The position numbers and the translations under genes were made by a program. The notes beneath the pieces are model-generated. The model was not told the DNA's origin. It saw nothing but the letters and a program-made list of their open reading frames with translations, and searched no databases. 64,000 nucleotides of DNA from Planctomycetota bacterium (GTDB lineage Bacteria; Planctomycetota; Phycisphaerae; UBA1845; UTPLA1), in assembly GCA_015654675.1 (NCBI GenBank), contig JAATGM010000021.1:62001-126000 (forward strand). The letters run 5' to 3'. This document shows positions 40,458 through 56,412 of this stretch, piece after piece (within the stretch, counting starts at the first letter, position 1; every line of letters starts with the position of its first letter).

Positions 40458-41108
40458 ATGCACATTCGAATCTTGGTCGTGGCGGGCTTCGTCGTCACAG
40501 GCCTCCAGGCCGGCTGCAGCGATAAACCGGGCGCGTTGCAGATGTCGGTCACGCCCGATGCTCCGGAGTTTGGCGAGCACTCGCTCATTCGGCTTCGCTG
40601 CGATTTGAGTTCCGACGAGGCCGTCTGCCTGCCGCGGAACTACGACGTGCGCGTGGAAATGCGTCGAGTCGATGCGGATGAAGACTCGATCCATCCATCG
40701 GCATGCCGCCGATTCCGGTGTGGTAGCGAGTATTTCGCGTTGCTTCCGCTCGTGCCGGCCATCGTCGTCGGCCGATTGCTGGATGTTGGGGACTTGGGTG
40801 GCCGGTTCCAGGTCATCGCACCAGGCGAGGCACGCTCGTGCATGCTTGAGATCGGCGGCGGCTCCACGACGAAGTATTGGCTGAATAATTGGCCGCCCGA
40901 CGACCTGGGCACAAGACCGACCGACGCCTGCTGGACACCCGGCGAATATCGCGTCACCGTCAGTCTCAATAATTACAACGGCTTCGCGCCGCTCTTTTGG
41001 AAACCGTACAGCCAGCCGGTCCAGGCGGAGGCCTTCATCCAAATCACCGACACGTCGACGGAGCCGGCCGTCGTCGAGCCCACAATTCAGGCCGGCGTGG
41101 GAGACTAA
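40458..41108 (+). CDS. Putative lipoprotein, unknown function
   Basis: This 216-residue protein has a signal sequence ([19 protein letters not shown]) ending at a likely lipobox cysteine. The mature part looks beta-rich, with segments such as [20 protein letters not shown] and [17 protein letters not shown] that recall immunoglobulin-like or CARDB-type surface domains, though I cannot name one. The frame is open far upstream, but the ATG at 40458 starts at the signal peptide. It is divergent from guaB across 100 bases. Confidence 0.68.
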
Positions 41109-41170
41109 TACCGGCACCTGACCTGCGCCGCTTAATTGGCATCGTGATACAATACACCGTGGAGCAACAC

Positions 41171-41419
41171 ATGAGCCGCGAGGAGCTGCTGTCACGCATT
41201 TCAATCGATCCCACCGTGTGTTTCGGCAAGCCGTGTATCCGCGGCACGCGCATTTGGGTTTCGCTCGTTCTCGATTTCCTGGCGAATGGCATGACGATGG
41301 ACGAAATCCAAAGGGAGTATCCGCACGTCGCCACTGAAGACATCTTGGCATGTATCGCATACGGCGCGGAAATGAGCCGCGAGCGATATGTTGAAATCCC
41401 CGTCCGGGCGGCGTCGTGA
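41171..41419 (+). CDS. DUF433 family antitoxin-like protein
   Basis: This 82-residue protein matches DUF433: ISIDPTVCFGKPCIRGTRI, then VSLVLDFLANGMTMDEIQREYPHVATEDILACIAYG. The C-terminal half resembles a helix-turn-helix and the N-terminal part a short beta segment, as in VapB-type antitoxins. The stop overlaps the start of a DUF5615 gene as GTGA. In many genomes this pair is treated as a toxin-antitoxin module, with this protein neutralising the PIN-like partner. GGAG precedes the ATG at 41171. Confidence 0.86.
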   Translation: MSREELLSRISIDPTVCFGKPCIRGTRIWVSLVLDFLANGMTMDEIQREYPHVATEDILACIAYGAEMSRERYVEIPVRAAS

Positions 41420-41790
41420 AGTTTAAGCTCGATGAAAACCTCGGCACCAGCGCGGTTCAGGTTTTTCGAGAATTCGGGCATGACGCGCTGACAGTCCGGG
41501 ACCAGCGGCTCGCGGGAATCAGCGATCCGCGACTTCTCATCGTCTGCCGCGACGAACAGCGGGCTCTGGTGACGCTAGACCTCGACTTCGCAAACCCGTT
41601 GAGCTTCAACCCGCAACAATATCACGGAATCGCCGTGCTTCGTTTGCCGCCTCGTGTCCAGATAGAACACCTGCTGACCGCCGTACAAACACTGCTCCTC
41701 GCACTCCAAAATCAAACGCTCGATCGCAAGCTCTGGATCGTCGAACTCGGGCGCATTCGCGAATACCAGCCGCAAGAGGAAGCCGAGTAA
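41416..41790 (+). CDS. DUF5615 PIN-like protein, probable toxin
   Basis: This 124-residue protein has the PIN-like (Mut7-C related) pattern of DUF5615. KFKLDENLG carries the first acidic residue, FGHDALTVRDQRLAGISDPRLL follows, and then VTLDLDFANP with its conserved Asp pair. Family members are proposed RNA-cleaving toxins. The GTG start at 41416 lies in the stop of the DUF433 gene, so the two are coupled. The C-terminal 30 residues are predicted helical and end acidic. Confidence 0.84.
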   Translation: MKFKLDENLGTSAVQVFREFGHDALTVRDQRLAGISDPRLLIVCRDEQRALVTLDLDFANPLSFNPQQYHGIAVLRLPPRVQIEHLLTAVQTLLLALQNQTLDRKLWIVELGRIREYQPQEEAE

Positions 41791-45132: not shown

Positions 45133-46131
45133 TTAGAGCTTTCGCATCGGCGTCCGCGCTGTGCGAAGTTCTCGTGTCGGATCGCTGCTGGGCGGAGTCG
45201 CCCGCGCGCGCTGCTGAATGGGTTGGCTGGGCGAATAGACTCGCCCTGCGACTGACAGCAGTTTGTCAATTAGCTCGTTCTGGGGGTCGAGCTTCTTGGC
45301 TTTCTGCAGTGCGGTGAACGCACTTCCCGGGCCGCTGGTGTAGTACAACGCGTACCCAAGCATGGTGACGGCGTATGGGTCGCCGGGTCGAGCGGCGACG
45401 GCTCGCTCCACCGCGGTGAGCTGAATCTCGAAATCCTGGGAGTTCCCGTATTCCTCGCGGAGGTCGAAGCGCAGCGTCGCGAGGCCGGGCTGGAGCTCGA
45501 AGGCCCGGGCAATGAGCTTGACCGACTGGTCATAGCGGCCGATCGCGAACATGGCATGGCCGGCGCGAACACGCGAAAGAGCGTCGGCGTGATTGGCGCC
45601 GGCGGCGTCGAGGAGCTGAATGGCAGCTTGTTCGTATTGCCCTGCGCGGAAGAGAGCTTTCCCGGAGTCGGTCTTCGCGACGTTCTGCTGGAGCAGGGTT
45701 TCGTCGCGTTTATAGATTTGATTGAGGTAATGGTAATCCTGGGCGTCGCGGATAGCGGTTTGATAGGGGATTCGGGCCATTTGGCGCTGAGCTTGCACCG
45801 AATAGTTACTGAGATCCGACTGCCCGATTCCGTACCCATAGCCATTGAAGCCGTAGCCCGATGAATACGCGCCGTTTGGCGAATAACCTGAATTGTAGTA
45901 AGGACTTAGGTCGTAAAACGCGGGTGGCGCGATGGGCATGGCTCCCGCGCGATATATTCCCGGCGGCAAGGCGTTGGGCACGGCCGGGTAGACGAGGGCT
46001 TGGGGAATTGGTTGCGTTGCTCCGAAGCCCGGAGATTGCTGCATCGGTGCGACAGCAAGCTGTTGGGCGAATGCAGGACCGAGTAGGACGAGGGGAATTG
46101 AACCGGCGAGGAACGACAACGGGCGAGACAT
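45133..46131 (-). CDS. Exported TPR protein, unknown function
   Basis: This 332-residue protein has a signal peptide (LSFLAGSIPLVLLGPAFAQQ) with a likely AxA cleavage site, then a Pro/Gly/Tyr-rich stretch (NSGYSPNGAYSSGYGFNGYGYG). The C-terminal half is TPR-like (ALFRAGQYEQAAIQLLDAAG, HAMFAIGRYDQSVKLIARAF, AVTMLGYALYYTSG). It should be periplasmic and act as a scaffold. I chose the ATG at 46131 because GGAG lies eight bases upstream and the signal peptide starts there. It is convergent with xseA (48 bases) and divergent from the redox operon. Confidence 0.78.
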   Translation of the reverse strand: MSRPLSFLAGSIPLVLLGPAFAQQLAVAPMQQSPGFGATQPIPQALVYPAVPNALPPGIYRAGAMPIAPPAFYDLSPYYNSGYSPNGAYSSGYGFNGYGYGIGQSDLSNYSVQAQRQMARIPYQTAIRDAQDYHYLNQIYKRDETLLQQNVAKTDSGKALFRAGQYEQAAIQLLDAAGANHADALSRVRAGHAMFAIGRYDQSVKLIARAFELQPGLATLRFDLREEYGNSQDFEIQLTAVERAVAARPGDPYAVTMLGYALYYTSGPGSAFTALQKAKKLDPQNELIDKLLSVAGRVYSPSQPIQQRARATPPSSDPTRELRTARTPMRKL

Positions 46132-46622
46132 GACCGGACTCCGAGGCCAAGGCATCGTCCGCGGCTAGCGAAACCGGGCGGATGGGACTGGCCCGGCACG
46201 TCGAAGTTTGCGGAGGCCGCGATATCGCCGCAACTTCCCCCTCCCCAGTGAAGACAAACGGGCGTCGCGAACGTTAGATTTCCGAATTTCGTCTCAAAGT
46301 TTTTTGTGCAATTGCAACATGAAATCGCTCGCTGGAATTGGGCGAGCGATATCGTACGCAAAGAGTACTGATTGGCTGGCGAGGGTTCCCAATAGTTTGC
46401 TGGCGGATTCTCCATCGCGGCGTCTGGGCCAGTCGGGCGATGTTAGTGCATGCTAACTCAGGCATCCGTTCATCATTCAGTGCGAAGCGCGCGCGGCAAT
46501 GATGCGCACGATATGTACGCAATAATGCGTGTATTCGCGTGCAATCCGGCCACAGCGCAAGCACAATACCGCGCTACGCGTGTTGCTGCGCAAAGCTAGT
46601 ACCCGCTAATGAGGACTTGAAC
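46132..46622. other. 491-base divergent intergenic region before the redox operon
   Basis: This gap holds the regulatory DNA for the TPR gene on one side and the redox operon on the other. It has a perfect 9-bp inverted repeat ATCGCTCGC/GCGAGCGAT (46324-46332 and 46342-46350, 9-base loop), a palindrome TGCAATTGCA (46307-46316), and ACGCA/TGCGT with a 4-base loop (46517-46530). No convincing -35/-10 pair was found for either gene, and no coding pattern is seen. Confidence 0.6.
46324..46350. repeat. Perfect 9-bp inverted repeat in the redox-operon control region
   Basis: ATCGCTCGC and GCGAGCGAT flank a 9-base loop. There is no T-run, and it lies about 270 bases upstream of the first operon gene and 193 bases upstream of the TPR gene. 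It may be an operator. Confidence 0.5.
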
Positions 46623-48428
46623 ATGTCAGTTGCCACCGTTGAACAGGGCCGCAGTCAGAGCAAACTCAACGTCGAGTTGCCGATCCTTGGCGCGCCGTCG
46701 GTCGATGCCGCGGTCGAAGCCGAGCGGCAGCGGCTGCTGCAGGAGGCCGGGCTGGATCATCAGATTCGGCACTTCAAGCGGCCGCGCGAGAAGAACTTCT
46801 CGAAGCAGGAGCGCGGAAAGACGACGATCTGGTTCGGTGGGCTGACGATGCGGCACGAGCATCTCATTCTCGCGGGCCTTGAAGGGCTGGGCTACAAGGT
46901 CGGCATCATTCCCACGCCGGTGAAGGCCGACTTTCAGGCGGGCAAGGAATACGGCAACAACGGGCAGTGCAACCCGACTTATTTCACGGTCGGTGCGGTC
47001 GTCAATCATCTGAAGAAGATGCGGGATGATGACAACATTCCGCTCGACAAGATTCTCGAAGAGAACGTGTTCATCACGGCCGGGGCTTGCGGGCCTTGCC
47101 GATTCGGAATGTATGAGGCCGAGTATCGCGTTGCGTTGCGAAACAGCGGCTTTGACGGCTTCCGCGTTCTGCTCTTCCAGCAGGGCGGCGGTTTGGACCA
47201 GTCGGCGGCTGAGGCGGGCATCGAGTTCAATCTGAACTTCTTCCTGTCGCTCGTGAACGGCATGTTCATGGGCGATCTGCTGAACGAAGTTGCCTACCAG
47301 ATTCGGCCGTTCGAAGTCGTTCCCGGTAAGACCGACGAAATCTTCGACAAGTGCCTCAAGATTTGCCAGGACGCGCTGCGGCAAAAGAACTACGACGAGA
47401 TTCAGGGTGGCAAGATTGCCAAGTTGCTGACGAACTTCCTGCCCCTCAAGAACGCCGACGAGACCGAGAAGTTTCTCGATCAGCTCCGCGGCACGTATTA
47501 CGCTGAAGTGTTCGAGAAGTGTCGGCATCTGATCGAAGAGGAGATCGAGGTCGACTACACGCGACCGAAGCCGATCGTGAAGATCACCGGCGAGTTCTGG
47601 GCGCAGACGACCGAGGGCGACGGCAACTTCAAGATGTTCCCGTTCCTCGAGTCCGAAGGCGCCGAGGTGCTGGTCGAGCCGATCGCGACGTGGATCGCCT
47701 ACATGCTCAACCAGGCCCGCAATAAGGCGAAGGATCGTAAGGGCGTAACGAAAGACGGCGAGGTCTCGCTGAAGAATCCGGCCAAGTGGCTGGCGGCCGA
47801 GAAGGCCTTCAGGGCCAAGATGTTCAAGTTCGCCCTGGCTGACAAAATCATCAAGCGCGAATACGGCCGGCTGCGCGAGGCCATTGGCGGTACGACGCAC
47901 GAACTGGCCTGCCAGCACGAGCTGACCCGCGTCGGGCACCCCTACTACAACAGCCGGGCCGGCGGCGGCGAAGGCCACCTCGAAGTCGCGAAGAATATCT
48001 ACTACAGCAACAAAGACATGGCCCACATGGTCCTGTCGCTCAAGCCGTTCGGCTGCATGCCCAGCACGCAGTCAGACGGGGCGCAGGCCGCGGTCGTCTC
48101 GCACTTCAAGGACATCATCTACATCCCGATCGAAACCTCCGGCGAGGGCGACATCAACGCATACAGCCGCGTACAGATGGCCCTCGGCGAGGCGAAGAAC
48201 AAGTGCAAGGATGAGTTCAACCGCTGCGTGAAGCAGAGCGGCTACACGATCGAGCAGATTCGTGCATACGTGGCCGAGTATCGCCAACTTCGCCGGCCGC
48301 TGCAGCACATCGGCCATCGCAAGGGCGTGATTGGCAAGGCGGCGAACTTCATTCTGGATGTCGCGGAGCGGATGAAGGCCGAGCATGTTCCAGCCGGAAA
48401 TCGCGAGGCAGAGTTGGTCGGAGTCTGA
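46623..48428 (+). CDS. HgdB-like/COG3581-type protein, separate subunit of a 2-hydroxyacyl-CoA-dehydratase-like system
   Basis: This 601-residue protein matches the C-terminal portion of giant activase/dehydratase-like proteins. The family blocks are GKEYGNNGQCNPTYFTVG (Cys116), TAGACGPCRFGMYEAEYR (Cys156, Cys159), and KPFGCMPSTQSDGAQAAV (Cys478) followed by HFKDIIYIPIETSGEGD. The conserved cysteines would ligate an iron-sulfur cluster of the HgdB or double-cubane type. In PlsA and relatives this part is fused after the activase domains; here it is a separate upstream gene. GAGGA lies eight bases before the ATG at 46623. Substrate is unknown; acyl-lipid reduction is my hypothesis. The next gene starts 45 bases later. 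Confidence 0.82.
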   Translation: MSVATVEQGRSQSKLNVELPILGAPSVDAAVEAERQRLLQEAGLDHQIRHFKRPREKNFSKQERGKTTIWFGGLTMRHEHLILAGLEGLGYKVGIIPTPVKADFQAGKEYGNNGQCNPTYFTVGAVVNHLKKMRDDDNIPLDKILEENVFITAGACGPCRFGMYEAEYRVALRNSGFDGFRVLLFQQGGGLDQSAAEAGIEFNLNFFLSLVNGMFMGDLLNEVAYQIRPFEVVPGKTDEIFDKCLKICQDALRQKNYDEIQGGKIAKLLTNFLPLKNADETEKFLDQLRGTYYAEVFEKCRHLIEEEIEVDYTRPKPIVKITGEFWAQTTEGDGNFKMFPFLESEGAEVLVEPIATWIAYMLNQARNKAKDRKGVTKDGEVSLKNPAKWLAAEKAFRAKMFKFALADKIIKREYGRLREAIGGTTHELACQHELTRVGHPYYNSRAGGGEGHLEVAKNIYYSNKDMAHMVLSLKPFGCMPSTQSDGAQAAVVSHFKDIIYIPIETSGEGDINAYSRVQMALGEAKNKCKDEFNRCVKQSGYTIEQIRAYVAEYRQLRRPLQHIGHRKGVIGKAANFILDVAERMKAEHVPAGNREAELVGV

Positions 48429-48473
48429 ACGAGGACGGCCCGCTCTGCGGACCCCACGAGGTAGAGAATCGCG

Positions 48474-51400
48474 ATGGCTTCAAAACTTCACGATGCAGAC
48501 AAACACGGTTCGGGTGGGGGAGGTGGTTGCAGTTCCGGCGGCGGAAGTTGCGGCTGCTCCTCGAAGAAGGGCGAGTCGGCCGGGACTGGCCTGATTCAAC
48601 TCAATGTCGGGCTTGCCTCGGCGGCGACGTCGCGGCCGACCATTGAAGACCTGCCGTTCCAGCCGACTGAGAAGTATCCGCAGGGCCTGCTCATCGGGCT
48701 CGACGTTGGCAGCACGACGGTCAAGTTCGTCGTCATCAATCCTGTCACCGACGAAATCCTCCACAAAGATTATCAGCGCCACGACACCAAGCAGCCCGAG
48801 AAGTGCATCGAGATGCTCAAGGTGATCGAGGAGAAGTTCACCGACGTGCCGCGCAACGCCTTCCGCGTTTTCATGACCGGGTCTGGCGGCTCAGCGATCG
48901 GCAAGCGGATCGGTGCGAAGTTTGTTCAGGAAGTGAACGCCGTTTCGCTTGCGGTGGAGAAGCTCTATCCGCAGGTCCAGTCGGTCGTCGAGCTGGGCGG
49001 GCAGGACGCCAAGATCATCGTCTTCAAGCCGGACGAAGAGACCGGCAAGAAGAAGAAAATCCCCTCGATGAATGACAAGTGCGCCGGCGGTACAGGCGCG
49101 GTCATCGACAAGATCAATGCCAAGCTCAAGATCCCGGCCGAGCAGCTCTGCAACATGGGCTACTTCGACCTGAAGTTGCACCCCGTAGCCGGCAAGTGCG
49201 GCGTCTTCGCCGAGACGGACATCAACGGCTTACAGAAGCAGGGCGTTCCGCCGGACGAGCTGATGGCGTCGCTGTTCGAGTCGATCATTCAGCAGAATCT
49301 CGCCGTGCTGACGCGCGGCCACACGCTGCGGCCGGTGGTGCTGCTGCTGGGCGGACCCAACTGCTACATCAAGGGCATGCGCGACTGCTGGCGAAACAAT
49401 ATTCCCATCGTCTGGAAAGAGCGCAAGGTCGAAGTTCCCGATCTGCCTATCGAAGAGCTGATTATCGTTCCTGAAAACGCGCAATACTTCGCGGCCATGG
49501 GGGCGGTTGAGTACGCGAAGATCGAAGTGCAGGACAACCCCAACTTCGGCGTCTATCGCGGCTTCTCCGAGCTGGAGTGGTACATCACCGTCGGCCGCGT
49601 CGAGGAGAAGAAGGCCAAGGGCAGCGCCGGCCTGACCAAGAACGCCGAAGAACTCGCCGCCTTCAAACATAAGTATCGCAAAGAGGCCTGGGTGCCAACC
49701 AAGTTCGCCCCGGGCACGCATGTTCAGGCGTTTTGCGGCCTCGATGGCGGCTCCACCAGCACCAAGGGCGTGCTGATGGACATGGACAAGAATGTCATCG
49801 CCCGCTCGTACCAGCTCTCCAAGGGCAACCCGATTGAGGATACGCAGGACATCCTCTCGCAGCTTGAGAAGCAGATTGCCGAACAGGGTTGCACGTTGGA
49901 GATTCTCGGGACAGGCACGACCGGGTATGCGAAGGACATTCTTAAGGACGTGATTGGGGCCGACGTGGCGCTGGTTGAGACCGTCGCCCACACGCAAGCC
50001 GGAATGCACTTCTACCCGGGCACCGACGTGATCTGCGACGTCGGCGGACAGGATATCAAGCTTATCGTTCTGAAAAACGGCCAAGTCAAAGACTTCAAAC
50101 TCAATACGCAGTGCTCGGCCGGCAACGGCTACTTCTTGCAGTCCACAGCTCAGGGCTTTGGCTTCAAGGTTGAAGAGTTTGCTGACATCGCCTTTTCGGC
50201 TCAGGCCATGCCAAGCTTCGGTTATGGCTGTGCGGTGTTCATGCAGTCCGACATTGTCGATTTCCAGCGGCAGGGTTGGTCGCCCGAAGAGATTATGGCC
50301 GCGCTGTGCGACGTGCTGCCGAAGAACATCTGGCTCTACGTCTCGCAGATTCCGAATATCGCCAAGCTTGGGACGAAGTTTGTGCTGCAGGGCGGCACGC
50401 AGAACAACCTCGCGGCCGTGAAGGCGCAGGTCGACTTCATCACCTCGCGATTCAAGGGCACCGGCGTTGAGCCCGAGGTGATCGTCCACAAGTTCTGCGG
50501 CGAGGCCGGCGCGATCGGCTGCGCAGTCGAGGCGCATCGGCTCTACACCGAGCAGGAACTCAAGACGACCTTCATCGGGTTTGAGCGCGTGCGGCAGATC
50601 AAGTTCCGCACGACGCGTGACGAAAACACCCGCTGCTATTTCTGCAAGAACAAGTGCCTGCGGACGTTCATTGACGTCAAGTCGGGATCGCCGGCGAGCC
50701 CGGGCACGCTGGTGGATCTGACGTCGCACATCATCAAAACCGGACCGGAAGCGGGGCACCCGACACGCATCAAGCATGGTGAGCCCGAGCCAGCGCTGGT
50801 CGAAGCGCAGGCAATGAAAACAAATCCGGACGGATCGCCCGAGGCGCCCACCGAAAAGAAGCCGGCCAAGAGCAAAACGAAGGTACCGCTGGCGTCGGAC
50901 GAGCAGCGGCTCATCATCGCCACATGCGAGAAGGGCACTGTCGAAGACGTCAACGACATGCGCGACATCAAGAAGGGGCTCGACGCGGTAAAGAAGGCCA
51001 ATCCCAACTTTGCCGAGATCGCGGCGCGCGAGGCCTTTGCCAGCACCGGCGTCGCGAATGTGGCCGATCCGATTCCGACCGTGAACTGGAAGAATGTGCT
51101 CAAGCGGAAGGAAGTCGAGCAGCGAATCGAGCGGATGAAGCGCCGCGAAGACATTCGCATCGGCCTGCCGCGACTCTTGAACATGTATTCGATGGGGCCA
51201 TGGTTTACTGCGTGGTTCCAGTCGCTCGGCATTCCGCATCGCAACCTGGTCTGGAGCGAATACACCAGCGAGGAGATGTACAAGGAAGGGGCTAAGCGCG
51301 GGGCGATCGATCCGTGCTTCCCGAGCAAGATCGGCATCCCGCACGTGCACAACTTGCTCTACCACAAGCACGCCGAGAAGCCGCTGAATTACATTTTCTT

Positions 51401-52325
51401 TCCGATGATCGACTGCCTGCCGACTTTCATGGAAGGCACCCTCAGCAATCGCGCGTGCCCAACGGTGTCGGCGACGCCTGAGGCGGTGAAGGCTGCGTTC
51501 ACGAAGGAGTCGAACGTCTTCGCTGATTTCGGCGTTGAGTATCTCGACACGTTCCTGAACTTCAGCGAGCCGGCCCTGCTCGAACGGCAGATGTTCAACG
51601 AGTTCGCCGACAAGCTTGGCCTTTCGGTCGAAGAAAATCATCGGGCTTGCAAGGCCGCATGGGAGGTCGACACAAAGTTTTGGGCCGATCTCCGCGATCA
51701 GGCCCGCGAAGTGCTTGAACGGCTTGAAGCGAATAATGAGATCGGCGTCGTCCTTCTGACGCGGCCGTACCACCACGATCCCGGCGTTTGCCACGAGATT
51801 CCCGACGAATTGCAGAAGCTCGGCTACCCCATCTTCACGATGGACACGCTGCCGCGCGACCCCGACATTTTGGAGCGGCTCTTCGGAGAAGAGGTCCGGC
51901 GTGGCGATTTCAAGAGCCCGCTCTCGATCGAAGACGCCTGGAAGAACGCCTACAGCGAGAACACCAATCGCAAGGTATGGGCCGCGAAGTATTGTGCCCG
52001 ACACCCCAATCTGGTGGCCCTCGAGTTGTCGAGCTTCAAGTGCGGCCATGACGCCCCGATCTACACGGTCATCGAAGAGGTGATCGAGAACTCGGAGACG
52101 CCGTACTTCTGCTTCAAGGACATTGACGAAAACAAGCCCACCGGCTCGATCCGGATTCGAATTGAGACGATCGGCTACTTCCTGCGGCGGCACCGCGACA
52201 AGATGGTAGTCCGCAAGCGCAAGATGACCGACATCGAGACGAAGCTGACCCAGCTGCGCGATCGGCTGCAGCGGCAGTACGACGCGGCGGCCGGTGTGCA
52301 GACCGCGGCTCTGGTGGGCGTGTGA
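48474..52325 (+). CDS. Giant BadF-type activase (two ATPase domains) with DUF2229
   Basis: This 1283-residue protein has two BadF/BadG/BcrA/HgdC-type ATPase domains. The first, from about residue 72, has GLDVGSTTVKF, Cys203 in NDKCAGGTGA and Cys242 in GKCGVFAETD. The second, from about 418, has GLDGGSTSTKG, Cys547 in TQCSAGNGY and Cys586 in GYGCAVFMQSD. Each keeps the cysteine pair that bridges a [4Fe-4S] cluster in HgdC dimers. CYFCKNKC (721-728) follows, then a linker. DUF2229 begins at about 895 (RIGLPRLLNMYSMGPWF) and the protein ends in a COG3580-like part. ATP-driven electron transfer to the upstream HgdB-like protein is the expected role. The first 35 residues are a Gly/Cys/Ser tail with Cys19, 26 and 28. 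Confidence 0.88.
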   Translation: MASKLHDADKHGSGGGGGCSSGGGSCGCSSKKGESAGTGLIQLNVGLASAATSRPTIEDLPFQPTEKYPQGLLIGLDVGSTTVKFVVINPVTDEILHKDYQRHDTKQPEKCIEMLKVIEEKFTDVPRNAFRVFMTGSGGSAIGKRIGAKFVQEVNAVSLAVEKLYPQVQSVVELGGQDAKIIVFKPDEETGKKKKIPSMNDKCAGGTGAVIDKINAKLKIPAEQLCNMGYFDLKLHPVAGKCGVFAETDINGLQKQGVPPDELMASLFESIIQQNLAVLTRGHTLRPVVLLLGGPNCYIKGMRDCWRNNIPIVWKERKVEVPDLPIEELIIVPENAQYFAAMGAVEYAKIEVQDNPNFGVYRGFSELEWYITVGRVEEKKAKGSAGLTKNAEELAAFKHKYRKEAWVPTKFAPGTHVQAFCGLDGGSTSTKGVLMDMDKNVIARSYQLSKGNPIEDTQDILSQLEKQIAEQGCTLEILGTGTTGYAKDILKDVIGADVALVETVAHTQAGMHFYPGTDVICDVGGQDIKLIVLKNGQVKDFKLNTQCSAGNGYFLQSTAQGFGFKVEEFADIAFSAQAMPSFGYGCAVFMQSDIVDFQRQGWSPEEIMAALCDVLPKNIWLYVSQIPNIAKLGTKFVLQGGTQNNLAAVKAQVDFITSRFKGTGVEPEVIVHKFCGEAGAIGCAVEAHRLYTEQELKTTFIGFERVRQIKFRTTRDENTRCYFCKNKCLRTFIDVKSGSPASPGTLVDLTSHIIKTGPEAGHPTRIKHGEPEPALVEAQAMKTNPDGSPEAPTEKKPAKSKTKVPLASDEQRLIIATCEKGTVEDVNDMRDIKKGLDAVKKANPNFAEIAAREAFASTGVANVADPIPTVNWKNVLKRKEVEQRIERMKRREDIRIGLPRLLNMYSMGPWFTAWFQSLGIPHRNLVWSEYTSEEMYKEGAKRGAIDPCFPSKIGIPHVHNLLYHKHAEKPLNYIFFPMIDCLPTFMEGTLSNRACPTVSATPEAVKAAFTKESNVFADFGVEYLDTFLNFSEPALLERQMFNEFADKLGLSVEENHRACKAAWEVDTKFWADLRDQAREVLERLEANNEIGVVLLTRPYHHDPGVCHEIPDELQKLGYPIFTMDTLPRDPDILERLFGEEVRRGDFKSPLSIEDAWKNAYSENTNRKVWAAKYCARHPNLVALELSSFKCGHDAPIYTVIEEVIENSETPYFCFKDIDENKPTGSIRIRIETIGYFLRRHRDKMVVRKRKMTDIETKLTQLRDRLQRQYDAAAGVQTAALVGV

Positions 52326-52393
52326 TGCTTGCGGTCCTCGCTCTCTGACGCGACACTTCCCGATCGCTCTTTGGCGACGGGCAGGAGGCGTTC

Positions 52394-52675
52394 GTGGCGG
52401 CGGCCGACAAGATCATGTTCGAGATTTATCGGGAGGCCGATTATGGCCGGCAGTTCCGAGTGGTTTATTTCACGGAACTGAACGAGCACAACAAAGAGAG
52501 CGAGATCGGCCGGGCCATGGCGGGCGAACACTTCTTCGACGGGTTCGTTCGCGAGAGCCGGCGGGATGATGCCAAGCGGTTCCTGACCGACGTCGTCCGG
52601 CAACTCAATAGCGGCCAGGCATTGACGGCCGATGAGGTTGAAAATCAATTACGCGAGCGCGAGTTGCTCGCTTAG
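52394..52675 (+). CDS. Conserved-looking 93-residue protein of the redox operon, unknown
   Basis: This 93-residue, soluble, mixed-charge protein lies between the activase and the radical-SAM gene, 69 and 38 bases away. The GTG start at 52394 has AGGAGG six bases upstream, a strong site. It has RQFRVVYFTELNEHNKESEI and a C-terminal helix-rich part (RDDAKRFLTDVVRQLNSG). It has no cysteine, no signal and no recognised domain. Its strong ribosome site and position suggest a partner or regulator of one of its neighbours. Confidence 0.72.
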   Translation: MAAADKIMFEIYREADYGRQFRVVYFTELNEHNKESEIGRAMAGEHFFDGFVRESRRDDAKRFLTDVVRQLNSGQALTADEVENQLRERELLA

Positions 52676-52713
52676 GGCCGCCTCGGCCCACCTGTCACGA
52701 AGGGAGTCCAGCG

Positions 52714-54855
52714 GTGGCGATGACCAAGCAGCTTCCGAAGGTTCCGGCCCATCTCGAACGCTGGGCTGCGAAACACCCGACCTATCTGCCACACGAGCCG
52801 CGCCCGGCGGTGACGAAAAAGAACGCCAAGTCCAAGCTGGACGAGTACAAGCTCTCCCTTCGTCGCTACGACCCCAAACATGCTCAGCTTCCGTGGGAGA
52901 TGATGTCGGAATGTCCGACTTGCGACGCCACGGTTCCCTCCACGTTTCATATGGTTGGCGATCGGGTGGTCCTGACGATTCGCTGCCCGTCGTGCGGCAC
53001 GGCCAATGAGGCCCACGAAGACGTCATTTTCCATCCGAATGCCAAGAGCGATCTGCCCGACTCGCCGACGCACACCTACGGCGGCACCAAGATCAACCCG
53101 ATTGTTCGCGGCCTTCCGCGAACGCTGGAGACGCTCTGCCCCGAGTGTTCGTGCAATATCCTCGGTCGCTATTACGTGAAGAACGGCCGCGTGATGATCG
53201 TGAAGACCTGCCCGCAGCACGGGTATTTCCGCGACTGCATCAACTCCGACGTGCGGGTCTATCTGCGGGCCAACTACTGGACATTTGAGGAGCAACCCGG
53301 CCTGACCAACCCCAAGGTCGAGCATGCTGTCTCCTGCCCCAGCGATTGTGGCCTCTGCAATCAGCACCAGTCGGTAGCCGTGCTTGCTAATATCGATCTG
53401 ACCAATCGCTGTAATCTCACCTGCCCGGTCTGCTTTGCAAACGCAAACGACGCCGGATACGTCCACGAGCCGAGCTTTACCGACGTCGAGCGCGAGCTGA
53501 TGCAGCTCCTCGACTGCCGGCCAACCCCCTGCACCAGCGTCCAGTTCTCAGGCGGCGAGCCGACCATTCACCCGCGCTTTCATGACATTGTCCGCCGCGC
53601 CAAAGAACTTGGCATGACCAACATCCAGGTGGCGACGAACGGCATCACCCACGCCAATCTCGAGTTCGCCCAGCGCAGCAAGGCAGCCGGCCTCCACACG
53701 CTCTACCTCCAGTTCGACGGACTCGACGATCGCATCTACAAGTTCGTCCGCGGCGAGGCACTGCTCGAAAAGAAGCTCCAGGCGATTGAGAACTGCCGCA
53801 AGGTCGGATTGAAAGTTTGCCTCGTTCCCACGCTCATCAAGAGTGAGAACGACGACCAGGTCAGCAAGATCTTCGATTTCGCAGTCGCCAACTCCGACGT
53901 TACCAGCGCCATTAGCTACCAGCCGGTCGTCTTCACCGGGCGAATTAACCGCCGCGACTTGGAGCGCAAGCGCTACACGCTGGGCGATCTGGCCCATGCC
54001 ATCCACAAACACACCGGCGCCGCGCTGGAGCGCGACTTCTTCCCGCTCTCCTTCGTCACACCCTTGTCGCAGTTGCTGAGCGTGCTGGAGCAGAAGCCGA
54101 AGATTCGCAGCAGTTGCCACAGCGATTGCGCCTTCGGCACCTACTTCCTCGTTGCTCCCGAAAAATACGCCGGCCAACCGACCCGCGAGCGCGTCGTCCC
54201 CATCCCGCAGGTCTTCGACATCGCCAGTCTCTTCAACGAGATGAACGAGATGGCCAAGCGTCTCGAAAAGAAGGAGAAGATCAGCAAGCTCGACTTGGCC
54301 AAGGTCCTGTGGATGTTCGTGAAGAACTACGATCGCAAGGCCGCTCCGGAAGGGCTGACCGTCATGCGTTTCATCAAGAGCTTGCAGGGATGCGTCAGCA
54401 AGACCGACGGCCGGTCGGATAAGGCCGACAAGGACAACTACAAGACGCTGATGTGCGCCGGCATGCACTTCCAGGATCGCTACAACTACGACGTCGAGCG
54501 CGTAAAGCGCTGCGTCATTCACTACAGCACGCCGGACGGCATCTACCCGTTCTGCACCTACAACAGCGGACCGACCTATCGCCCCTTTATCGAGGCGATG
54601 TGGTCAACGCCGAACGAAGAGTGGATCGCCGGCCATCCCGGTCAGCGGATCGTCCCGCCATCCAGCCCCAACAGCGTCATGCCGTGGGCGGGCAAGTTCG
54701 GCGGAGAGCCGGAAGAAGATGAGAGCTGGCGGACGCTGGAGAAAGAGGGCAGCAAGTTCACGAAGCTGCTCTCCCTGCCGGTGGCGGGCGGCGCGGCGGG
54801 CCAGAGCAAGGTCGGCTCGCGCGGCGGATGCGGTTCGGGCTGCGGCTGCGGTTGA
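52714..54855 (+). CDS. Radical-SAM protein of the tetraether lipid synthase (Tes)-like family
   Basis: This 713-residue protein has the radical-SAM cluster motif CNLTCPVC (Cys233, 237, 240) in IDLTNRCNLTCPVCF and the SAM motif FSGGEPTIHP. The region before it has the Tes-family layout. LCPECSCNILGRYYVKNGR leads to TCPQHGYFRDC, and then CPSDCGLCNQHQS (Cys208, 212, 215) comes just before the cluster. A further CPTC...CPSCG knuckle (67-94) precedes this. Archaeal Tes joins two lipid tails by carbon-carbon bond formation; the bacterial reaction is not known from sequence. Cysteines in SSCHSDCAFGTYF may bind another cluster. The C-terminus ends in GGCGSGCGCG. Confidence 0.85.
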   Translation: MAMTKQLPKVPAHLERWAAKHPTYLPHEPRPAVTKKNAKSKLDEYKLSLRRYDPKHAQLPWEMMSECPTCDATVPSTFHMVGDRVVLTIRCPSCGTANEAHEDVIFHPNAKSDLPDSPTHTYGGTKINPIVRGLPRTLETLCPECSCNILGRYYVKNGRVMIVKTCPQHGYFRDCINSDVRVYLRANYWTFEEQPGLTNPKVEHAVSCPSDCGLCNQHQSVAVLANIDLTNRCNLTCPVCFANANDAGYVHEPSFTDVERELMQLLDCRPTPCTSVQFSGGEPTIHPRFHDIVRRAKELGMTNIQVATNGITHANLEFAQRSKAAGLHTLYLQFDGLDDRIYKFVRGEALLEKKLQAIENCRKVGLKVCLVPTLIKSENDDQVSKIFDFAVANSDVTSAISYQPVVFTGRINRRDLERKRYTLGDLAHAIHKHTGAALERDFFPLSFVTPLSQLLSVLEQKPKIRSSCHSDCAFGTYFLVAPEKYAGQPTRERVVPIPQVFDIASLFNEMNEMAKRLEKKEKISKLDLAKVLWMFVKNYDRKAAPEGLTVMRFIKSLQGCVSKTDGRSDKADKDNYKTLMCAGMHFQDRYNYDVERVKRCVIHYSTPDGIYPFCTYNSGPTYRPFIEAMWSTPNEEWIAGHPGQRIVPPSSPNSVMPWAGKFGGEPEEDESWRTLEKEGSKFTKLLSLPVAGGAAGQSKVGSRGGCGSGCGCG

Positions 54856-54887: not shown

Positions 54888-55631
54888 CTATTGCCCATCC
54901 GGCGGCGCCGGCATGGTTTCGGTCGTCGCCGTCGTCTCATCAAAAATCTTCGCATTCGCGGGCGCTTCGAACTTAAATCGTTCCTCCTTGATTGGAACGT
55001 TTGTTCGAATATCCACGTAGGTCAGGGTCGTCATCGGCCTGCCCTTAATGTCATACGTGATCTTCTTCAACGGCACGCCAAGTTCCTTGTCGAACCAAAA
55101 CTTGTGTGGAAAGGCCGGCCACGGGTGCTTCAGTGGCGGCTTCGGTTTTACCAGTACAACCCAGCACGACCGTCCGGAGACTTCCTCGTCGTCGAGAAGG
55201 GACATGTCATACTGGTCCTTGAACTCAGCGAACGGATTCGGATCCGGAACAGCTGAAAGCTTCTGCTTCGTCACGACGGGCTGATTCAGTGCGATATTCA
55301 AAAGCCATGTGAACTGGCCGTCGCAGACCTTTTCAAACGTGTTAGGTTCCTTAGTAGCCTTGCCTTGGTACTCAATTGCCTTGACGCGCTTAAGTTCCTC
55401 ACGATGGAGGTACTTATCGCCGACAATCATATACTCAATCGTTCCGTCGCCCGTCGTCGTGTTTTTTGCCGCACCCTCAAGGAATTGATGGTAGCGAACC
55501 TTCTCCGTCAGCGACGTGATCCTGCGTCTCATCTCGGTCAGCTTCTTCTCGACGGATTCAAACGTCTCAGCGCGCACAGAGGTCTGCGCACACGCCGCGA
55601 TCAATCCCATCGTAAATAGCCGGCGAATCAT
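54888..55631 (-). CDS. LolA-like outer-membrane lipoprotein-sorting family protein (copy 1)
   Basis: This 247-residue protein has a signal peptide (IRRLFTMGLIAACAQTSVRA) and a LolA-like beta-barrel pattern: IEYMIVGDKYLHREE, CDGQFTWLLN, KFWFDKELGVPLKKITYD and FKFEAPANAKIF. Such planctomycete proteins resemble the LolA/LppX fold that binds acyl chains in the periplasm. I chose the ATG at 55631 because GGAGG lies seven bases upstream; two in-frame ATGs precede it. The next paralogue lies 28 bases away on the same strand. It is convergent with the radical-SAM gene, whose stop is 32 bases away. Confidence 0.75.
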   Translation of the reverse strand: MIRRLFTMGLIAACAQTSVRAETFESVEKKLTEMRRRITSLTEKVRYHQFLEGAAKNTTTGDGTIEYMIVGDKYLHREELKRVKAIEYQGKATKEPNTFEKVCDGQFTWLLNIALNQPVVTKQKLSAVPDPNPFAEFKDQYDMSLLDDEEVSGRSCWVVLVKPKPPLKHPWPAFPHKFWFDKELGVPLKKITYDIKGRPMTTLTYVDIRTNVPIKEERFKFEAPANAKIFDETTATTETMPAPPDGQ

Positions 55632-55659
55632 CCCCATTTCCTCCAAATACACAGCCCCG

Positions 55660-56412
55660 TCATTGCTTGCCCGCAGGCGAGCTCAGGTCCGCCTGGGTCG
55701 TATCCATGACCTTGACGCCCGGTGGCGGTGTGAACTTGAAGTGGTCTTTCCCGATCGACTTGTTCACTTGAATGTCTGAATACGTTGTCGTCGACATCGG
55801 CTTTCCTTCACCCGTGTAAACGATATTCTTCGCCATGGCCCCCGTGTCCTTCTGGAAATACTGCCGCATTTTCCCGCCCGCCGCCGGGTTCGGTGCCGCC
55901 TTCGATGCCTTGGGCGTCGCCTCAAACACCCAGCAGGTCTTGCCGTCGATGGTTTCGTCCGGCAGTAGCTTCAGATCGTAGTCATCTCGCAACGACTTGA
56001 ATGGGTCGCTGTCCGGCTTGTCCGGAAGCTTGGACTTTGTGGCCATCTTCTCGCCCGCCTGGTCGGTCAGCGTGTAGTAAAAGTGGCCGTCACAAACGCC
56101 GATTGACGAGCTTTCCTGCTTTGCCTTGTTCCCGCCGACGTCCGTCTCGCTCATCATCTTAGTGTCTGACCGGACATACATCTTGTCCCCATCCACCAGA
56201 TACTCGTAGCTGCCGTCCGCGGTAGCCGTGCTCTTGAACCCCGCCATGTCCATCTGAGTCACTTGCTTGAGCCTGGCCGACATGGACTTAATGGCTTTAT
56301 TCTTCTCGACGATCTTCTTCTGAACATCTTCCACTGACTCTGCTCGACCGACTCCGGTGCCGCCAAGAACCAGGACAATCGCCGCACCCGCCGTCATCAA
56401 ACCGCGCTTCAT
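55660..56412 (-). CDS. LolA-like exported protein (copy 2)
   Basis: This 250-residue paralogue of the next gene has a signal peptide (MKRGLMTAGAAIVLVLGG). The same fold blocks follow: GSYEYLVDGDKMYVRSDTKM, VCDGHFYYTLTDQAG, LKLLPDETIDGKTCWVFEAT, MRQYFQKDTGAMAKNIVY and FKFTPPPGVKVMD. It is exported and probably carries a hydrophobic ligand; this is an inference from the fold. The two genes form a small operon with this one first. The cargo is unknown. Confidence 0.75.
   Translation of the reverse strand: MKRGLMTAGAAIVLVLGGTGVGRAESVEDVQKKIVEKNKAIKSMSARLKQVTQMDMAGFKSTATADGSYEYLVDGDKMYVRSDTKMMSETDVGGNKAKQESSSIGVCDGHFYYTLTDQAGEKMATKSKLPDKPDSDPFKSLRDDYDLKLLPDETIDGKTCWVFEATPKASKAAPNPAAGGKMRQYFQKDTGAMAKNIVYTGEGKPMSTTTYSDIQVNKSIGKDHFKFTPPPGVKVMDTTQADLSSPAGKQ

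Follow-up and report, generated by a model that had tools for sequence, protein, structure and literature searches.

Gene content of the locus

A 64,000-nucleotide stretch of planctomycete DNA (GenBank assembly GCA_015654675.1, contig JAATGM010000021.1, positions 62,001 to 126,000, forward strand; hereafter the window) carries four consecutive genes, A to D, which encode an HgdB-like protein, a two-ATPase-domain activase, a small protein and a radical S-adenosylmethionine (radical-SAM) enzyme of the tetraether lipid synthase (Tes) family (Table 1). We analyzed this operon as a candidate pathway for membrane-spanning, probably ether-linked, lipids in its host, which is supported as a planctomycete of the class Phycisphaerae. 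All four frames were recovered on one strand where a preliminary description, made from the sequence alone, had placed them, and the gaps A/B, B/C and C/D measured 45, 68 and 38 bases, the second having been given there as 69. The ATG of gene A at 46623 sits within a longer frame that begins with GTG at 46539. Among 23 A loci fetched from relatives, A is accompanied by B on the same strand in 21, and in the remaining two the contig stops directly past A. Because B adjoins A in this way, we conclude that the four frames are real genes and not chance frames. A scan for promoters and terminators across the locus found nothing exceeding shuffled controls.

Table 1. Features of the operon and the Gms-like gene of the same genome (window positions unless a contig is named)
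Feature	Position	Strand	Description
Gene A	46623..48428	+	601 aa; HgdB-like; putative partner of the DUF2229 part of B
Gene B	48474..52325	+	1283 aa; BadF-BadF-DUF2229 activase
Tail of B	48507..48572	+	Gly/Cys-rich, N-terminal, residues 12-33
Gene C	52394..52675	+	93 aa; putative small accessory protein of A-B
Gene D	52714..54855	+	713 aa; GTG start; predicted tetraether lipid synthase Tes
Tail of D	54823..54852	+	Gly/Cys-rich, C-terminal, GGCGSGCGCG, residues 704-713
Gms-like gene	G000:C20:36520-38166 (L291, L296:8428-10617)	-	Own genome; outside the window, 76.5 kb upstream of Tes, same contig

Gene D is a member of the Tes family

Gene D scored 498.6 bits against NCBIfam NF045702, the curated Tes equivalog model, whose cut-off is 450. 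The TrsS model gave 306 bits against a cut-off of 490, and TrsS and the other radical-SAM families listed among the 25 best were rejected as they stayed under their cut-offs. The closest solved relative is GDGT-MAS 7TOL (E 5.1e-113, residues 135-641), whose ligands are described in PMC9433317. Matching by hand demonstrated that D keeps the rubredoxin-like iron ligands (CX2CX20CX2H; C142/C145/C166/H169), the Cys3His ligands of the N-terminal cluster (C208/C212/C215/H218) and the CX3CX2C motif of the SAM cluster (C233/C237/C240); with a chain offset of 20, M584 aligns with the labile Met439 and Y604 with the active-site Tyr459 of the C-terminal cluster domain. As the curated cut-off is passed and the ligands are conserved, D is assigned to the Tes family, with tail-coupling activity predicted, and the earlier view of D as a radical-SAM protein of Tes layout is borne out. 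D also has an extra N-terminal CX2C...CX2C ribbon (C67, C70, C91, C94), which, like its Cys-rich tail, falls outside the region aligned to the solved enzyme.

A second Tes type, lacking the N-terminal ribbon, was seen in nine loci (L230, L233, L235, L237, L240, L243, L245, L246 and L249). Both types occur together in genomes G363, G365 and G372.

Tes lies behind Ger-type genes, and A-B can occupy the same place

We inspected 53 Tes loci, of which 44 have at least 49.5% identity to D and 40 of these at least 1.5 kb of upstream sequence. In 34 of these 40 Phycisphaerae-class loci, a fused gene resembling the glycerol-ester reductase Ger, a split HgdB gene or an A-B gene lies on the same strand no more than 2 kb upstream of Tes; since L149 and L267 are one contig, the count becomes 33 of 39. 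'Ger-like' here denotes domain architecture, the reference rows not being verified Ger or PlsA enzymes. A fused gene stands directly ahead of Tes in two Sedimentisphaerales records (L148 and L149), and A-B does so in four loci, those of the window, G304, G297 and G312.

When 30 Tes and Tes-like proteins were placed on a tree, the Tes from the four A-B loci separated into two groups among Ger-linked ones. One group adjoins G303, a genome with no A and with split Ger-like genes on another contig, and the other adjoins family f96, which has split Ger-like genes; the starred branches of the tree force at least two neighbour changes. A-B and Ger-like genes have therefore been swapped beside Tes at least twice, whichever the direction, and this exchange is the strongest sign that A-B may take the place of Ger.

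Architecture and fold of genes A and B

Gene B matches PF01869 (BadF) twice and PF09989 (DUF2229). In profile comparisons, the alignment of B to fused Ger-like proteins (five from the class) spanned 989 columns at 27% identity (E 3.8e-93), and that of A to split Ger-like HgdB proteins (seven sequences) spanned 371 columns at 22% identity (probability 99.1, E 4.4e-19). A retains the motifs GQCNP (C116), GPCRFG (C159) and CMPST (C478). Two BadF domains, a DUF2229 domain and an HgdB-like part are thus all present, on two polypeptides, the HgdB-like part being recognized by profile and fold only; neither A nor C matched a Pfam or NCBIfam family at E 0.001.

The fold model of A (mean predicted local distance difference test score, pLDDT, 68.9) had HadBC, BzdNO, the double-cubane cluster protein DCCP and MbdON in the top eight VIA-align rows, with modest Z scores of 5.8-7.4 (below 8) over 258-280 residues at 5.0-5.6 Å. 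In Foldseek the four top-ranked matches were DCCP, the best E value was 0.013 and none reached 0.001. A gave no match to HGD-D (PF06050) even at E 5, on which ground we rejected ordinary amino-acid dehydratase genes as an identity for A-B.

Gene C has orthologues in seven of the 23 A loci and also adjoins B in L300, a locus of another family. Its fold model is confident (pLDDT 91.3); the best matches to it (Foldseek E 2.1; VIA-align Z 3.7, a UPF0213 protein, 68 residues) were counted as no match, so that no identity was assigned by fold.

The class also contains other fused two-BadF/DUF2229 proteins (L143, L145 and L146; 1378-1593 aa), which fall outside the Ger-like clades of the trees described below.

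Distribution of A-B and Tes

Searches for A were made within the phylum. A was found at E <1e-180 in 16 of the 17 genomes of family f1, to which the host genome (G000) belongs, the exception being G303; at E <1e-100 in eight of 44 order-mates searched; and, by profile search at E 1e-40, in 24 of 294 genomes across the phylum, the host genome included. Five plasmid-borne records of named relatives (22-27% identity, 33-80% of A covered) were set aside as relatives of A. The Ger-like query against contigs of named genomes was read for the best 80 matches of a longer list. No conserved neighbour hinting at the function of A-B was found besides C, and C only in some loci.

Within f1, Tes occurs in four of the 17 genomes (G000, G297, G303 and G304), three of which also have A. 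Of 248 class genomes drawn evenly, 55 contained Tes at E <1e-100, three genomes with partial matches (G370, G386 and G476) not being among them, and 93 contained DUF2229, or 89 once four genomes with only weak partial matches were removed; 50 of these also have Tes. The host genome has a single Tes and a single DUF2229 protein. Gene B supplies the sole DUF2229 match region or regions of G000, G304 and G312, so that these genomes showed no further DUF2229-type candidate for an ether-forming step.

A Gms-like radical-SAM/SPASM gene accompanies Tes

In many relatives a radical-SAM/SPASM gene lies downstream of Tes. We call it Gms-like by layout only, from the description of Gms in PMC11186832. 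PF04055 and PF13186 were both matched in the host copy and in those of L131, L139, L231 and L252. With the G303 form as query (E 1e-60 or better), the gene was detected in 54 of the class genomes drawn (248). Tes was present in 55 of the 248, and both occur together in 50; in 31 the two are at most 3 kb apart. The Fisher p values for class-genome co-occurrence ignore shared ancestry. Tes occurs without the Gms-like gene in G366, G372, G406, G442 and G511, and the Gms-like gene without a counted Tes in G370, G386, G490 and G531; none of the nine Tes-less f1 genomes of the draw has it. In G297, A, B, C, Tes and the Gms-like gene stand in one row, the contig ending within the last.

Gly/Cys-rich tails accompany A-B

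The Gly/Cys-rich N-terminal tail of B is present in 19 of 30 B frames, all 19 being among the 21 frames that come from this order. The C-terminal tail of Tes was found in all four A-B loci (window, G304, G297 and G312), and eight further Tes, inspected by eye, lacked it. The caller of open reading frames (ORFs) retained 46 Tes and Tes-like frames, of which three are tagged, those of the window, G312 and L081; these tag counts refer to kept frames, as the ORF caller favours the longest frames in GC-rich DNA and dropped some genes, among them the Tes of L055 and L065, for which the tails were examined separately. Four Gms-like proteins, each from a genome with A-B, have an N-terminal stretch rich in Gly; it contains two Cys in G312 and a single Cys in G304, G297 and the window genome. 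None of the other 19 frames has it, that of L234 having a chance-looking internal window. Stretches with at least two Cys occur in 20 of 397 frames from the window and 32 loci (17 B, two Tes and one Gms-like) and in two of 858 frames from other loci (one B, and L081). The tail thus goes with A-B.

L081:4285-6291 (minus strand) is a Tes-like radical-SAM gene from another planctomycete class, whose product reaches 300 of the 450 bits of the Tes cut-off and has a similar Cys-rich C-terminal tail.

Pattern counts were rejected as evidence. GGCSSGG gave 34 matches in 19 genomes, not above chance against 50 for the backwards control; 30 of the 34, read as loci, comprised 13 B, the Gms-like gene of G297 and 16 other frames (two of them long). 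The DNA pattern of the D tail gave one match in the host genome and its backwards control two. Only the placement of the tails on B, Tes and Gms-like proteins is informative. A role in docking or metal loading is our guess.

Proposed pathway and alternative explanations

Against an observed background of gene order, the family of D, the architecture and lineage of A-B, Tes linkage and Gms-like co-occurrence, we infer each reaction and product as follows. The two BadF ATPase domains of B would use ATP to drive low-potential electrons into iron-sulfur (Fe-S) sites of DUF2229 and A. The DUF2229-A pair, predicted to be built like the HgdBC/BcrBC heterodimer, would then reduce a phospholipid glycerol ester to an alkyl or alkenyl ether, as Ger and PlsA do, here through a divergent split enzyme, with C as a likely small accessory protein. 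D would join two lipid tail ends by radical-SAM C(sp3)-C(sp3) coupling into a diabolic-acid-like or tetraether chain, and the Gms-like enzyme may cross-link chains to a product resembling branched glycerol monoalkyl glycerol tetraethers (brGMGT). In most relatives with this Tes type, Tes directly follows a Ger-type gene, which makes a membrane-spanning and/or ether-lipid pathway the most plausible interpretation. We judge it slightly more probable than not that this planctomycete uses the operon to make membrane-spanning lipids, probably ether-linked, with the divergent A-B performing the ether step.

Several observations weigh against this reading. Trees of 39 B-type and 36 A-type rows were built, both carrying a long-branch warning, after fused proteins, including reference rows from Ca. 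Brocadia and Ca. Scalindua, had been split by motif or length. In the B tree the window type forms a deep clade of its own (100/100, stem 6.5 changes per site) that lies apart from the two Ger-like clades, fused (95/94) and split (100/100). The A tree likewise recovers it as a clade (100/100, stem 5.1), on a backbone that is unresolved and with the fused rows not forming one group. A-B thus appear to be a deep lineage of their own, the very long stem making placement unsure. The activase trees that the preliminary description had called for, here run with Ger-like rows, accordingly did not nest A-B among Ger-like sequences; of its term 'PlsA-like activase/dehydratase', the BadF-BadF-DUF2229 plus HgdB-like architecture stands, in split form, and the clustering within Ger-like clades does not. 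A has a single Cys at the GKECLPC position of fused Ger-like proteins, the second being gone. No Ger-type or A-B gene lies upstream in six of the 40 Tes loci (L132, L228, L231, L232, L234 and L236), nor in any of nine loci of the second Tes type, which has less than 49.5% identity to D and aligns from about residue 114. In G310, A-B coexist with a pair of split Ger-like genes, which speaks against strict interchangeability. Finally, 13 of the 16 A-bearing f1 genomes have no Tes; the job of A-B is therefore not tied to tail coupling, and we rejected A-B as an obligate companion of Tes, since most A-B carriers lack it. The earlier proposal that the operon makes ether bonds and/or couples tails consequently survives in part: the identity of Tes and its linkage to Ger-type genes favour it, while the position of A-B outside the Ger-like clades and their mostly Tes-free occurrence do not.

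A more specific version holds that a split A-B(-C) ester-to-ether system was swapped with Ger at least twice, that both Tes and the Gms-like SPASM protein gained the Gly/Cys tail characteristic of B, and that this shared Cys tag assembles Fe-S enzymes into a pathway to compounds like brGMGT or branched glycerol dialkyl glycerol tetraethers (brGDGT). We advance it tentatively, as a rather doubtful extension. Against the shared tag, the tail is absent from nine B frames of other planctomycete families (L300-L308), from L072 and from the cut L075; three of the four tagged Gms-like proteins have a tail with a single Cys; and the genome of the tailed L081 (G029) gave no A match at E 1e-40.

The separate lineage of A-B, their mostly Tes-free occurrence and the lack of any conserved neighbour pointing to lipids, C in some loci apart, would fit an unrelated ATP-dependent reduction, for example of a CoA thioester, the adjacency to Tes in a few genomes being coincidental and Tes acting alone. 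Such a coincidence would have to place A-B directly ahead of Tes on two separate branches of the Tes tree, in a position held by Ger-like genes in relatives, and to give the Tes beside A-B a B-like tail in four of four loci; we regard it as unlikely. A-B may instead deliver low-potential electrons, driven by ATP, to the Fe-S clusters of Tes and the Gms-like protein, making no ethers, so that the spanning lipid might be ester-linked and the Gly/Cys tails would aid docking or metal loading. BadF ATPases and an HgdB-like fold are those of electron-activating systems, and where A-B are present, Tes and the Gms-like protein share a tail with B. This explanation seems improbable in view of the 13 A-bearing f1 genomes with no Tes for A-B to serve, the Tes-less f1 genomes of the draw with no Gms-like gene, the Ger-like genes that occupy the same spot by Tes in relatives, and the report that Ger forms ethers in E. 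coli without Tes (PMC11150832). It is less probable still that D is a Tes-family protein acting on another lipid or a non-lipid substrate, with no membrane-spanning lipid made, for although a 2025 study calls bacterial Tes activity unconfirmed (PMC11868695), a point that also weakens the reading we prefer, and the ribbon and Cys tail of D lie outside the part aligned to the solved enzyme, D keeps the ligands, labile Met and active-site Tyr, and Tes has Ger-type neighbours in most relatives.

Relation to known systems

Tes homologues numbering 456 have been reported from bacteria, with a proposed role in brGDGT formation (PMC8941075). Among 684 metagenome-assembled genomes of Black Sea Planctomycetota, homologues of Tes were reported in 110, of Ger in 53 and of Gms in 90; Tes was found in some Phycisphaerae, and some Brocadiia make alkyl ethers, sometimes coinciding with Ger, ElbD or Agps homologues (PMC11868695). 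Planctomycete Tes and Ger homologues are thus already published. In the open-access literature searched, gene linkage between Tes and Ger, a replacement of Ger by A-B and the Gly/Cys tails were not found described; as far as that literature shows, the linked cassette, the neighbour exchange and the tails are new.

D resembles Tes/GDGT-MAS (MJ0619, PDB 7TOL/7TOM) in passing NF045702 and in conserving all ligands together with the labile Met and active-site Tyr, and differs in being bacterial, in its N-terminal ribbon and Gly/Cys tail, and in lying directly behind Ger-type genes; its activity is predicted. A-B share with Ger/PlsA their domain architecture and homology along the proteins, and differ in being two genes with the HgdB part first, in their separate lineage, in the one-Cys GKECLPC position and in the Gly/Cys tail on B. 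With 2-hydroxyacyl-CoA dehydratases, benzoyl-CoA reductases and double-cubane proteins they have in common the BadF domain sequence of B, and the fold model of A bears a modest resemblance to theirs (Z 5.8-7.4); A lacks PF06050 and the activase is a 1283-aa protein of two BadF domains plus DUF2229. The Gms-like protein shares the radical-SAM core and C-terminal SPASM domain of Gms (Li et al. 2024, PMC11186832), its gene here lying outside the window. Mss with Ger, described in Bacillota, likewise pairs a bacterial coupling enzyme with an ester-to-ether enzyme, with Ger and PlsA said there to be indistinguishable from sequence alone (PMC13274423); set apart by that description, the coupling enzyme here is Tes, and the association there is genomic co-occurrence, not gene linkage.

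Flanking genes

Upstream of the operon lies a tetratricopeptide repeat (TPR) gene (45133-46155, minus strand). Two neighbouring LolA-like genes for outer-membrane lipoprotein sorting (54888-55652 and 55660-56412, minus strand) point towards the operon from downstream. A small overlapping pair on the plus strand (41078-41419 and 41416-41790) is presumably of the DUF433/DUF5615 toxin-antitoxin type.

Significance

Branched tetraethers serve as proxies of past temperature, and few of the bacteria that make them are known; the operon is a candidate pathway for archaeal-like spanning lipids. The recurring arrangement of Tes behind Ger-type genes, often followed by the Gms-like gene, links the presumed steps of such a pathway genetically. 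If A-B perform the Ger step, surveys that use Ger queries with a 30% identity limit could miss A-B. The Tes/Ger arrangement also points to groups to grow and analyze, such as the Sedimentisphaerales with a fused Ger-like gene and Tes.

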